From assembly GCA_018064935.1 (NCBI GenBank), contig JAGHUF010000034.1, positions 1 to 43,804 of the forward strand: a stretch of 43,804 bases of DNA, in the 5' to 3' direction. Shown piece by piece: positions 9,659-25,642 of the stretch. The notes under the pieces were generated by a model that had not been told where the DNA came from, made no database searches, and was given only the letters and a program-made list of their open reading frames with translations. The translations under genes and the position numbers were made by a program. How positions within the stretch are numbered: the stretch's first letter is position 1; each line of letters opens with the position of its first letter. This DNA is from Candidatus Merdinaster equi. Its GTDB lineage: Bacteria > Bacillota > Clostridia > Lachnospirales > Lachnospiraceae.

Positions 9659-11500
9659 ATGATGACTATTAAAAAAGGAATTCCATATCCATTTGGCGCA
9701 CGTCTCATGGCGGATGGCGTACATTTTGCCACTGCTTTTGAGGACCCATTTGATGCAGGGATAATACTATATCAGAAAAGCGGAGATAAGATTACAACTG
9801 AACGTATCCAAATGAAGCCTGAATATTTTGTAGGGAATATTGGATGCGTTATTGTTGATGGAATTGACCCGGAAAACACATATTACAATTTCTATGAGGG
9901 AGAGAAGGTTTATCTTGATCCTCACGCAAGAGGAATTGTGGGCAGAGAGAAATATGGTGCGGATCCAACAGCTAGAAGTCAGAGCATGTGTGCAATTCCA
10001 ACTTCATCTTTTGACTGGGAGGATGATTCTCCACTATGTATTCCTTATGAGGAATCTGTGTTCTATTGTCTTCATGTCAGAGGCTTCTCGAATGGTAAGA
10101 GAAGCGGAGTGAAGACTGGGCACAAAGGAACTTTCGCAGGAATAATTGATAAAATACCATACTTTAAGGAGTTGGGCGTTAAGAATCTTGAACTAATGCC
10201 TGTGTATGAATATGACGAGTGGGACAGCTTTGTTACAGTTGATGCCAACTCTGAAGTGCCCAAGGATATTGTGCAATATAAGATGAACTATTGGGGATAT
10301 AAAGAGGCTGCTTTTTTTGCACCCAAGAGATCATATAGTAGCCAGAATAATTCTGCGGATGAGTTCAAGAGTATGGTTCGCAGTGCACATGAGAATGGAA
10401 TTGAGATAATTCTTCAAATGTATTTCCCGGATTCAATTAAGCCAGGTTATATTCTGGAGGTGCTTAGATTCTGGGTTATGGAATATCATGTCGATGGCTT
10501 TCATCTAATGGGTAATAGAATCCCACTTACACTTTTGGGAACAGAACCGATGTTTTCAAATACCAAGCTTATTTACTATGGATTTCCTGTTGAAGAGATA
10601 TATAAACCGTCAGAGCTTCCGAAGTTTTTGAATCTGGGTGTGTTTACTGAAGATTTCCAAATTGCTGCTAGAAAATTCCTGAAGGGTGATGAGAATATGC
10701 TGTCAGAAATGATGCAGAAAATGACATCACTTCAGACAAGGTGTGCCAATTTCAGGAATATCACTAATTATTATGGCTTCACTTTGACTGATCTTGTTTC
10801 ATATGACAGGAAACATAATGCAGACAATGGCGAAGACAATAGGGATGGAGCAGACTTGAATTATAGCTGGAACTGTGGAGAGGAAGGCGATAGCAAGAAG
10901 AGTCTTGTAAAAAAGACCAGAAAGAAGCAGCTTAGAAATGCAATGGCAATCGCAATTCTTTCACAGGGAACCCCATTTCTTATGGCGGGTGATGAGGACC
11001 TGAATTCTCAGGACGGAAATAATAATCCATATTGCCAGGACAACGAAATCGGATATAAAGACTGGAATCATACGAAGGCGTCTATAGCTCAATTTGAATT
11101 TGTGCAGGGGCTGCTTAAATTAAGGGCAAAGCACCCAACTTTGAGAAAGGGACATTTGCAGATTCCTACTATTTCTGGAAGTTCAGAGTTCCCGGAAATA
11201 TCATTCCATTCAGATGAAGCCTTTTCGCTTAACACGGCTGCTTATAATCGTCATATTGGAATTATGTATGGCGGTTTGTATGGTGATAGAAAAGGCAATC
11301 TTGACGAGGATGTATTTGTTGCATTCAATATGCATTGGCTTGATCAGAAGATGGCTTTACCTGCGCCTGGTAAGAATTATGAATGGGTAAAGGTTCTTGA
11401 TACATCAGATGAGCAGGCTTTTGAGGAAAAGAAAATAGAAGAACTAATTCAGACTATGCCTGGAAGGACAGTTCAGATGTACGTAAGGCGCAAAAAGTGA
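9659..11500 (+). CDS. GlgX/pullulanase-like GH13 protein, catalytic residues lost
   Basis: The fold is clear: an N-terminal CBM48-like domain (GIPYPFGARLMADGVHFA), then a GH13 barrel beginning with FYCLHVRGFS, KGTFAGIIDKIPYFKELGV and ELMPVYE, as in glycogen debranching enzymes and pullulanases. All four catalytic regions are changed: region I DVVFNH is ILQMYFPD; region II GFRFDLA is GFHLMGN, losing Arg and the nucleophile Asp; region III has KLIYYGF where an AEPW-type Glu belongs; region IV, normally HDGFTL, is NYYGFTL. It should not hydrolyse glucan but may still bind it. TATAAT (9616-9621) is a possible -10. Start choice is uncertain: TTG 9641, ATG 9659 or ATG 9662; I prefer ATG 9659 (613 residues). 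The stop overlaps the next gene (GTGA). Confidence 0.85.
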   Translation: MMTIKKGIPYPFGARLMADGVHFATAFEDPFDAGIILYQKSGDKITTERIQMKPEYFVGNIGCVIVDGIDPENTYYNFYEGEKVYLDPHARGIVGREKYGADPTARSQSMCAIPTSSFDWEDDSPLCIPYEESVFYCLHVRGFSNGKRSGVKTGHKGTFAGIIDKIPYFKELGVKNLELMPVYEYDEWDSFVTVDANSEVPKDIVQYKMNYWGYKEAAFFAPKRSYSSQNNSADEFKSMVRSAHENGIEIILQMYFPDSIKPGYILEVLRFWVMEYHVDGFHLMGNRIPLTLLGTEPMFSNTKLIYYGFPVEEIYKPSELPKFLNLGVFTEDFQIAARKFLKGDENMLSEMMQKMTSLQTRCANFRNITNYYGFTLTDLVSYDRKHNADNGEDNRDGADLNYSWNCGEEGDSKKSLVKKTRKKQLRNAMAIAILSQGTPFLMAGDEDLNSQDGNNNPYCQDNEIGYKDWNHTKASIAQFEFVQGLLKLRAKHPTLRKGHLQIPTISGSSEFPEISFHSDEAFSLNTAAYNRHIGIMYGGLYGDRKGNLDEDVFVAFNMHWLDQKMALPAPGKNYEWVKVLDTSDEQAFEEKKIEELIQTMPGRTVQMYVRRKK

Positions 11501-12060
11501 AACTCATACAACATTTTAAAACAATTACAAAGCATAGACATGAAGTCATGAAGGGGTGCTTTAGAATAGGGCTATTCAGGCAAGGGCTTCTGCATGATTT
11601 GTCCAAATATATGCCGGATGAATTCAGTGCTGGAGTCAAGTACTATCAAGGGACGCGGAGCCCCAATGCTATGGAGCGAGAAGAGAATGGCTTTTCAACG
11701 GCCTGGATGCACCATAAAGGGCGGAATAAACATCACTACGAATACTGGTCTGATTTTGACAGAAAATCGAGGACGATGATTCCGGCACCAATGCCGACAA
11801 AATACGTGGCAGAAATGTATGCTGACAGAGTTGCAGCTTGTAAAGTATATGAGAAGGACCAATATACTGAAAGCAGTGCTCTTAAGTATTTTGATAAAGC
11901 AATTGACAAAGATTTGATGCATGAAAAAACAAGAAGGCAGTTAAGAATTTTGCTGAATATGCTTGCAACTAAAGGCGAAGAAAAGACCAATGCATATATA
12001 CGTAAGCAAGTTCTACATAATGATAATTTCTTTACCAGATTGATTAGCAGATTAGTATAA
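11497..12060 (+). CDS. DUF5662 family protein
   Basis: This 187-residue protein matches the DUF5662 type found in Lachnospiraceae. It has a conserved His/Asp pattern suggestive of a metal site: KHRHEV, then GLLHDLSKY, then MHHKGRNKHHYEYW. HDLSKY followed by paired His residues resembles HD-type phosphohydrolases, but I cannot assign a reaction. The start is GTG, sharing four bases with the previous stop (GTGA), preceded by AAGGCG. This coupling to the catalytically dead GH13 gene suggests the two are made together. The reading GTG rather than a later ATG is supported by the overlap and by the full N-terminal helix. Confidence 0.75.
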   Translation: MKLIQHFKTITKHRHEVMKGCFRIGLFRQGLLHDLSKYMPDEFSAGVKYYQGTRSPNAMEREENGFSTAWMHHKGRNKHHYEYWSDFDRKSRTMIPAPMPTKYVAEMYADRVAACKVYEKDQYTESSALKYFDKAIDKDLMHEKTRRQLRILLNMLATKGEEKTNAYIRKQVLHNDNFFTRLISRLV

Positions 12061-23392: not shown

Positions 23393-25642
23393 ATGGATAA
23401 AAAATTATATAAACTTATGGATTGGGCAGCAATTGAAGGAATTGTATATGCAGATGATCCACATGCTGATGCGATTCTCGGATGCCATGAAATCAAGGGG
23501 AACCAGTCCTTGGTACAATGCTTTTTTCCTAGGGCAAGTAAGATTACATTGTGTTATAAAGATGGAAAAAACACTAAAACAGTAGCCATGCAGCTCGCTG
23601 ATGAGGAGGGCTTTTTTGCAGCATTAGTTCCCGGTAAGATTGGTAAGGACTACTCATATAAAGTGACATATGAGAATGATAAGAATGAATATGAATTCTT
23701 GGATCCATATGCTTTCAAGGCACCTGAATCTGAAGAAGTAATGAAGAAATTCCTGGCTGGTTCGTTGTATAATGCGCAGGATTATTTTGGCGCTCACAAG
23801 ACAGTTGTCGACGGAACAAGTGGAATTCTTTTCAGAGTGTATGCACCGATGGCTGATTGTGTTTCTCTTATCGGTGATTTTGACAGATATGATAGCAGAA
23901 GCCTTCCGATGATTAAAAATGATGAAACGGGAGTATTCAGCCTGTTTATTCCAACTCTCAAGGAGAAAGAAAAAGCAGAGTATATGTACGAAATTCGTAC
24001 ATCGAAAGGAAAAGTTGTTAGAAAACTTGATCCTTATGCAGCGACCCATGTTAGAAAGGATGGCCTTCATGAGTCTGCGCTTCTTAAAAATGTTAAGAAA
24101 TATGCGCCAGTTAAAACAGTTGAAGCAGAACCATTCCTTCTGTATACCTTTGACTCTGTATCTGAGATACCAGATGATTACGAACAGAAAGCAAAGGATA
24201 TTAAGGAACTTGGATTTACACATGTCAGTGTAGGAAATCTTCTTTCTGAAAGAATGTCCCATGATGTGCATGTTGCCAAGACATTTTTTGATAATCCAGC
24301 ATCTACAAAAGTTAAGAAATTCATTGATGCACTTCATAAGGTAGGGCTTAAGGTTATTGGCGTTCTGGCGCTGTCTTGTTTTGATCTGGATTCAGAGTCT
24401 CTCACAGCATTTGACGGAAGCTGTATATACGAGCATTTGGATGAGAGACAGGGCAAGCATTATAAATATCTCGCAGGATTATTCAACTATGACAGAGGTG
24501 AGGTTAAGTCATTCCTTTTATCTGCTGCACTCAGATATGTAAATTGTTTTGAACTTGATGGTATAAGACTAGCAGATACATCATTTATGTTGTATTTAGA
24601 TTACGCTAAGGATGCTGGAATGTGGATTCCTAACATCTATGGTGGCAATGAGAACCTTAGTGCAATTGCCTTTATTAAAGAGCTTAATAGGATGCTCAAA
24701 AAAGAGTATCCTGGACTTCTGCTAATGACTGATGAATTCAGTGGATGGCAGAATATGACTAAGAGTCAGGATGATGACGGATTTGGATTTGACTTAAAGT
24801 GGAATCATGCTTATACAAGCGAGTTGTATAAATATTTATCACTCAATCCAATTAACAGAAGTGCTCATCATCATGAACTTACGATGTCTTATTTATATCA
24901 GCAGATTGAGAAATTTGTTCTTGCGATAACGCAGGATGCACTTACCAAATGTTCTACTGGTGAAGACCAGTTGTTTAATTCAGAATATGCTGATACTAAT
25001 AAGCTTATCTATGCGTATACTATGTTCCACCCAGGGAAAAAGGCATTTAAGAACAGCTTTGTTTCATCGCTTGACAGTAATTTTGTAAAAGCAACTAATT
25101 CTATGTATTTGGAATGCGCTGCGCTTAATCAGCTTGACTCACAGCCCGAAGGATTTGAGTGGATTAATGAGATATCTGCAAATGAATGTGTCCTAACTTA
25201 TACAAGAAAGAGCGTCAATCCAGAAGAGACACTGCTTGTTGTTGTAAATATGGCAGGATGCGGTTGGGAAAATTATAAAATTGGCGTTCCGATGGATGGA
25301 AAATATAAGACGGTATACGTGTCTGAGAATGCTAAATTCGGAGGACTCGTAAATATGAAACAGACACTTGTCAAATGTAAGAAGGATGAGTGCGATATGA
25401 GAGATTATTCAATCCGCATTAAGATTCCGGCTCTGTCTGTTTCTGTTTATTCTTTTGTGCCATATACTCCTGAGGAACTTGAGGCAATTAGGGCAAAAGA
25501 GGAAGAAAAGAGACTAAAAGAAGAAGAGGCTAGAAAAAAGAAAGAGCTTCTCAAAAAGAAAAAAGACAAGATTAAAAAGACAATGAAAGAAAAGCTTGCC
25601 AGAGAAATAGCAAAGGCAGAGGAAGAGATTTATAGATCATGA
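23393..25642 (+). CDS. Glycogen branching enzyme-like protein with altered catalytic residues
   Basis: The 749-residue chain follows GlgB order: N1 domain (FPRASKITLCYKDG), CBM48 (FRVYAPMADCVSLIGDFDRY), a GH13_9 barrel with GSCIYEHLDERQGKH and FNYDRGEVKSFLLSAAL, and a C-terminal beta domain. The catalytic triad is changed: region II reads DGIRLADTSFMLY instead of DALRVDAVASMIY, so the nucleophile is Ala394; the acid/base position is Asp447 (TDEF for AEES); region IV is ITQDAL for SHDEV, keeping Asp515 but losing the His. The 53 and 68 residue spacings match E. coli Asp405/Glu458/Asp526. Region I is also lost. A highly charged Lys/Glu tail, probably a coiled coil, fills about residues 695-749. 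The stop overlaps the mscS start by four bases. Confidence 0.88.
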   Translation: MDKKLYKLMDWAAIEGIVYADDPHADAILGCHEIKGNQSLVQCFFPRASKITLCYKDGKNTKTVAMQLADEEGFFAALVPGKIGKDYSYKVTYENDKNEYEFLDPYAFKAPESEEVMKKFLAGSLYNAQDYFGAHKTVVDGTSGILFRVYAPMADCVSLIGDFDRYDSRSLPMIKNDETGVFSLFIPTLKEKEKAEYMYEIRTSKGKVVRKLDPYAATHVRKDGLHESALLKNVKKYAPVKTVEAEPFLLYTFDSVSEIPDDYEQKAKDIKELGFTHVSVGNLLSERMSHDVHVAKTFFDNPASTKVKKFIDALHKVGLKVIGVLALSCFDLDSESLTAFDGSCIYEHLDERQGKHYKYLAGLFNYDRGEVKSFLLSAALRYVNCFELDGIRLADTSFMLYLDYAKDAGMWIPNIYGGNENLSAIAFIKELNRMLKKEYPGLLLMTDEFSGWQNMTKSQDDDGFGFDLKWNHAYTSELYKYLSLNPINRSAHHHELTMSYLYQQIEKFVLAITQDALTKCSTGEDQLFNSEYADTNKLIYAYTMFHPGKKAFKNSFVSSLDSNFVKATNSMYLECAALNQLDSQPEGFEWINEISANECVLTYTRKSVNPEETLLVVVNMAGCGWENYKIGVPMDGKYKTVYVSENAKFGGLVNMKQTLVKCKKDECDMRDYSIRIKIPALSVSVYSFVPYTPEELEAIRAKEEEKRLKEEEARKKKELLKKKKDKIKKTMKEKLAREIAKAEEEIYRS

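Follow-up and report, generated by a model that had tools for sequence, protein, structure and literature searches.

In Firmicutes, GlgD is a non-catalytic paralogue of the ADP-glucose pyrophosphorylase GlgC and forms complexes with active GlgC. In animals, the SLC3 heavy chains 4F2hc and rBAT are GH13-fold non-enzymes that serve as membrane-anchored transporter subunits. Among the isoamylases, plant ISA2 is non-catalytic and binds ISA1, and the reason for its retention is not understood (PMC12510319). The active relatives are represented by GlgX and TreX (GH13_11; E. coli 2WSK, S. venezuelae 7U3x, S. solfataricus 2VNC). The acarbose complex of S. venezuelae GlgX shows W222, Y224, H271, D342, E378, W380 and H449 in contact with the -1 sugar and R212, E470, N534 and Y536 in contact with the other acarbose sugars, and either D342A or E378A abolishes activity (PMC9530166). 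GlgX proteins of Streptomyces share a conserved c-di-GMP site, ExR(X)6R, that TreX and E. coli GlgX lack (PMC9530166).

A stretch of 43,804 nucleotides from Candidatus Merdinaster equi (Lachnospiraceae), hereafter the window, encodes a catalytically dead GlgX paralogue of isoamylase type, GH13_11-like. The protein has the same overall fold as GlgX/TreX, and 57 alignment columns reach 90% identity or more among pseudoenzymes and among active GlgX alike, which indicates that the framework of the pseudoenzyme is under constraint. The contact residues at the -1 stacking platform and at more distant subsites are also the same, whereas the triad, its partners in regions I, II, III and IV and a 44-residue loop are gone, and the protein is about 80 residues shorter. 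In the functional sense, it falls outside the GlgX enzyme family. Within the same phylum, GlgD sets a precedent for a dead paralogue at work in glycogen metabolism, but its fold and step are unrelated to those of GlgX. With 4F2hc and rBAT it shares the reuse of a GH13 barrel without catalysis; the N-terminal transmembrane helix of SLC3 is absent, as the model begins with beta strands (residues 3-6 and 13-17) and has no N-terminal helix. The likeness to plant ISA2 is that of a dead isoamylase paralogue with a long history of retention, in which the nucleophile and most catalytic residues are lost across the clade, as in ISA2 (PMC12510319). The differences are that the pseudoenzyme is bacterial and that its structural match to ISA2 (Foldseek 9j6x_C, E 4.7e-40) is weaker than that to ISA1 or GlgX.

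Gene, family and fold

The gene lies at 9659..11500 on the plus strand and was assigned to the GlgX/isoamylase fold by Pfam, NCBIfam, sequence search, AlphaFold and Foldseek. Translation gives 613 aa from ATG 9659 and 619 aa from the alternative start TTG 9641, with the stop at 11500. An initial annotation, made from the sequence alone, had described a long intact frame here, and the frame is indeed open throughout (0 internal stops); the four motifs it listed, ILQMYFPD, GFHLMGN, KLIYYGF and NYYGFTL, all read exactly as written. The match to the NCBIfam GlgX model TIGR02100 is 294.3 bits, far below the equivalog cut-off of 640.9, and Pfam recognised an alpha-amylase domain and a weak isoamylase C-terminal domain. 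The closest solved structures by sequence search were plant ISA1, bacterial GlgX and archaeal TreX (profile scores of 437 bits for ISA1, 317-399 for bacterial/archaeal GlgX/TreX and 228-234 for ISA2).

The structure model that had been suggested as a check gave an isoamylase fold. The AlphaFold model (mean pLDDT 92.1, pTM 0.93) has the three domains of the isoamylase type, with TM (query) of 0.77-0.84 to ISA1/GlgX/TreX. Rice ISA1 was the best Foldseek match (9j6x_B, E 1.8e-53), followed by S. venezuelae GlgX, Chlamydomonas ISA1, TreX, E. coli GlgX and then ISA2. The description of a conserved CBM48 and barrel framework stands only in part: Pfam CBM48 was undetected here at E<=0.01 (found in 8 of 30 orthologues), and the isoamylase-like N-terminal beta domain is backed by the structure model instead of Pfam. 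HVRGFS is a framework motif as described, but its position is the start of the barrel and not CBM48.

Loss of the catalytic site

Active GlgX proteins (n = 45) show the consensus DVV(F/Y)NHT, GFRFDLA, (L/I)IAE(A/P/G)W and HDGFTL, and alignment with them confirmed that the whole triad and its partners are gone from the window protein, in which Met, Tyr and Tyr take the places of Asp-Glu-Asp. Former region I, ILQMYFPD (residues 251-258; 10409..10432, plus strand), has lost the Asp, Asn and His of the catalytic site. In former region II, GFHLMGN (residues 280-286; 10496..10516, plus strand), the nucleophile Asp is replaced by Met and Arg by His; in former region III, KLIYYGF (residues 303-309; 10565..10585, plus strand), the acid/base Glu by Tyr and Trp by Phe; and in former region IV, NYYGFTL (residues 370-376; 10766..10786, plus strand), His-Asp by Tyr-Tyr.

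The same holds across the family. The D/E/D triad is complete in none of 78 aligned orthologues (52 have no triad residue left, 24 have one, 2 have two and none has three), while it is full in 44 of the 45 active GlgX, the remaining one having an alignment gap at a single position. One member (L029) has Asp at the nucleophile column, with the other catalytic residues missing. Columns corresponding to H271, D342, E378, H449 and D450 of S. venezuelae GlgX are lost or scattered in the pseudoenzymes. Regions I and II are separated by 26 residues, compared with 70-71 in active GlgX, by a clean 44-residue deletion of the loop between them, which adjoins the active site (approximate site in the window from alignment spacing, 10433..10447, plus strand), and the median length is 626 aa against 706 aa. 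Because the loss is common to the 78 orthologues and is accompanied by this clean deletion, it is not due to chance. Since D342A and E378A inactivate the Streptomyces enzyme, alpha-1,6 hydrolysis of branched glucan by the pseudoenzyme appears unlikely.

Distribution in Lachnospiraceae and beyond

Among 100 genera of the family, each represented by a single genome (completeness of 95% or more, save for the window's own at 75%), a full-length pseudoenzyme was found in about 82 (83 including one with an insertion; the 82 include G089, whose copy is described below), and active GlgX in about 32 (counted among the matches listed). The dead paralogue of the debrancher is thus commoner in Lachnospiraceae than the active enzyme. 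Across the class, 8 of 10 Lachnospiraceae genomes reached the threshold, and not one of the 233 from other families did. The pseudoenzyme is a near-core gene of Lachnospiraceae, probably ancient and of single origin. No description of this family was found in the open-access literature searched. Glycogen synthase GlgA is present in 99 of the 100 family genomes, so presence or absence of the pseudoenzyme cannot be tied to glycogen within Lachnospiraceae. The Ca. Merdinaster equi genome (75% complete) encodes glycogen synthase and a normal branching enzyme, and no active GlgX was found in it.

These distributions bear on whether the pseudoenzyme is a regulatory subunit of the ISA2 type, which would tune a catalytic debrancher (active GlgX or pullulanase) in a heteromer. 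Plant ISA2, a non-catalytic paralogue, boosts ISA1 activity in such a complex (PMC12510319, PMC12892837), both ISA1 and ISA2, as solved in heterocomplexes from rice and Arabidopsis, are structural matches to the model, and pseudoenzyme and active GlgX occur together in about 30 genera (among the matches listed). However, about 52 of the 83 carrier genera, like the window's own genome, lack active GlgX, while plant ISA2 works in complex with ISA1; with most carriers lacking a catalytic GlgX, the coexisting catalytic isoamylase that marks the plant system is not a general feature here. Furthermore, 15 of 30 carrier genomes (e.g., G022, G027 and G012) have neither GlgX, nor type I pullulanase above the cut-off, nor a strong GH133 match, a count that rests on HMM thresholds for these three, leaves out other alpha-1,6-glucosidases and includes several incomplete genomes. 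Such a subunit is therefore unlikely, and the distribution does not support the idea that the pseudoenzyme generally pairs with active GlgX. By analogy, the pseudoenzyme may work somewhat like plant ISA2, without a catalytic GlgX partner. It poses in bacteria, where deletion and biochemistry are simpler, the same kind of puzzle as the persistence of non-catalytic ISA2 in plants.

The same 15 genomes still carry glycogen synthase and branching enzyme, which raises the question of the glycogen debranching route in about half of 30 glycogen-making genomes without a recognised debrancher above standard thresholds. This is what would be seen if the pseudoenzyme were still an enzyme on glucan or another substrate, using non-canonical residues. 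Against this, the former catalytic columns vary freely (N/M/L/V/I/K at the nucleophile, Y/E/D/T/N/H at the acid/base) and no new invariant acidic pair has appeared. The only positions conserved specifically in pseudoenzymes are Y183 and D505, so no new functional site is visible. Many Clostridia outside Lachnospiraceae are also without GlgX, so other debranching routes must exist, and residual catalysis is very improbable.

Phylogeny and selection

A protein search of 61 related genomes returned orthologues from about 30 genera of Lachnospiraceae; they are about 580-660 aa long, with identities mostly of 34-45%, and all show the same catalytic losses. Further named orthologues on public genome contigs are mostly labelled Lachnospiraceae, the closest being from Lachnospiraceae bacterium UBA7050 (48% identity). 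In genome G019 (L015:1447-3846), the C-terminus of the pseudoenzyme is fused to an O6-methylguanine-DNA methyltransferase. In a maximum-likelihood tree of 123 proteins (78 pseudoenzymes and 45 active GlgX; quick search, no bootstrap, midpoint root), the two groups lie on the two sides of one branch (SH-aLRT 100), a split consistent with one old loss of catalysis.

The initial annotation had considered the protein dead but kept, and had named dN/dS in Lachnospiraceae orthologues as a check. In a close species pair of one genus (94% identity), dN/dS is 0.058 (dN 0.029, dS 0.506), and more distant pairs, in which dS is near saturation, give 0.06-0.12. Such low values reveal strong purifying selection on the pseudoenzyme gene. 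Together with the absence of a complete triad from the 78 orthologues, the single clade and the presence in about 82 of 100 genera, they strongly support that view. The annotation had also named orthologues retaining the D/E/D triad, with strain-specific decay of this copy, as the observation that would overturn it; none was found among the 78, and strain-specific decay or a frameshift is ruled out by these orthologues and the dN/dS of 0.058.

Is the gene a decaying pseudogene before break-up? The copy in G089 (G089:C2:544927-546717) has an in-frame TGA, which may be a recent loss or a sequencing error, and the window encodes another dead GH13 protein. Across the family, decay is refuted by the full-length frames in the other sampled genera, by dN/dS and by a tree consistent with a single old loss followed by diversification; as an account of the gene it is scarcely credible.

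Retained sugar contacts and possible role

Three segments with sugar-contacting residues of S. venezuelae GlgX (PMC9530166) are retained in the window protein, all on the plus strand. In NYWGY (residues 210-214; 10286..10300), W212 and Y214 correspond to W222 and Y224 at the -1 sugar. In the NGEDNRDG loop after region IV (10826..10849), E392 corresponds to the acarbose-contacting E470. In the GDExxNSQxGNNNxYCQDN loop (10988..11044), N456 and Y458 correspond to the acarbose-contacting N534 and Y536. This mapping was made from motif spacing in an alignment without the S. venezuelae sequence, not by superposition, and R212 was left out. Among the 78 pseudoenzymes, W212 is kept in 78, Y214 in 68 (Phe in the other 10), E392 in 77, N456 in 78 and Y458 in 75; the E392 column holds Glu in only 22 of the 45 active GlgX.

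Because the equivalents of W222, Y224, E470, N534 and Y536 are kept, the remaining cleft would still hold branched alpha-1,4/1,6-glucan (glycogen) without cutting it. Being unable to cut, the pseudoenzyme would then be a glucan-binding scaffold or sensor that shapes the access of other glycogen enzymes, which, judged from the residues kept and lost, is probably the simplest role for it. With most carriers lacking active GlgX, it would act alone or through some other partner, for which the translationally coupled DUF5662 protein is a candidate. We consider that a non-hydrolytic alpha-glucan-binding pseudoenzyme, scaffold or sensor, with no need of a catalytic GlgX partner, has a little better than an even chance of being correct. 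The initial annotation had proposed another job for the protein, such as glycogen binding, scaffolding or regulation, and the kept contact residues would favour glucan binding among these. Several points stand against this reading: the contact residues could be kept for folding, the pseudoenzyme gene does not adjoin glycogen genes, its presence cannot be linked to glycogen in a family where nearly every genome has GlgA, and Y183 and D505 are the only positions conserved specifically in pseudoenzymes.

Annotation of the protein as a debranching enzyme is misleading, since the cutting residues are all gone and the contact residues kept; it probably holds or senses glycogen. GlgX counts based on similarity may include the pseudoenzyme; the two glgX homologues listed for Blautia obeum (PMC10395257) are an example of such a count.

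Neighbouring genes and DUF5662

Comparison of loci revealed a recurrent order of gltX, a UvrD/PcrA-like helicase, a gene on the opposite strand that we take to be DUF1292, the pseudoenzyme, DUF5662 and then a 6-phosphogluconolactonase-like gene or trpS. In the window, the DUF5662 gene (PF18907, by Pfam and neighbourhood comparison; GTG start, 11497..12060, plus strand) overlaps the stop of the pseudoenzyme by 4 bp (11497-11500). Flanks were available at 49 loci; in 27 of these DUF5662 is one of the first three genes downstream, and in 18 it comes directly next, at a distance of -14 to +28 bp and often with the same 4-bp overlap. About seven loci (L053, L058, L057, L043, L052, L067 and L068) have a membrane protein of 210-220 aa, presumably TraX-like, between the two genes. 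No glycogen operon adjoins the pseudoenzyme in the compared loci. A promoter scan gave sites no more numerous than in shuffled sequence.

Such a neighbourhood raises the alternative that the protein has left glucan metabolism, and that its isoamylase scaffold now serves DUF5662, or some other housekeeping neighbour, as a structural or protein-binding partner. The frequent proximity and overlap of DUF5662, the absence of glycogen genes nearby, the member fused to O6-methylguanine-DNA methyltransferase and the precedent of 4F2hc/rBAT are in line with such reuse. But W212, N456, Y458 and E392, all at positions of glucan contact, are nearly invariant, with no obvious need in a purely structural role, and DUF5662 is also found away from the pseudoenzyme and, in other genomes, without it, so we regard this alternative as rather doubtful.

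The coupling of DUF5662 is the best lead to a partner of the pseudoenzyme. The DUF5662 model is confident (pLDDT 90.7) and gave no significant Foldseek match to solved structures; HD-type hydrolases are among the insignificant matches (E 1.6-9), a weak lead, and the DUF5662 alignment contains an invariant His-Asp. No mention of DUF5662 was found in the open-access literature. A bolder version, in which a free-standing glycogen sensor signals glucan in the dead cleft via the co-translated DUF5662 protein to cell physiology, is a long shot. If true, it would be a bacterial glycogen-sensing module, of which no described counterpart was found in the open-access literature.

Another dead GH13 protein: a long-form GlgB

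The other dead GH13 protein of the window is a long-form GlgB of 749 aa with CBM48, GlgB_N and C-terminal domains (23393..25642, plus strand; family search and motifs). Its nucleophile Asp is replaced by Ala (DGIRLADTSF), and regions I, III and IV read VLALSCF, TDEF and TQDALTK. A normal GlgB (L150) is encoded elsewhere in the Ca. Merdinaster equi genome. Two relatives of the dead GlgB were returned at a strict E-value. Most genera checked have an intact long-form GlgB; it is degenerate in G010, G008 and G004 (L164, L168 and L169), and that of G026 (L171) shows a change from D to N.
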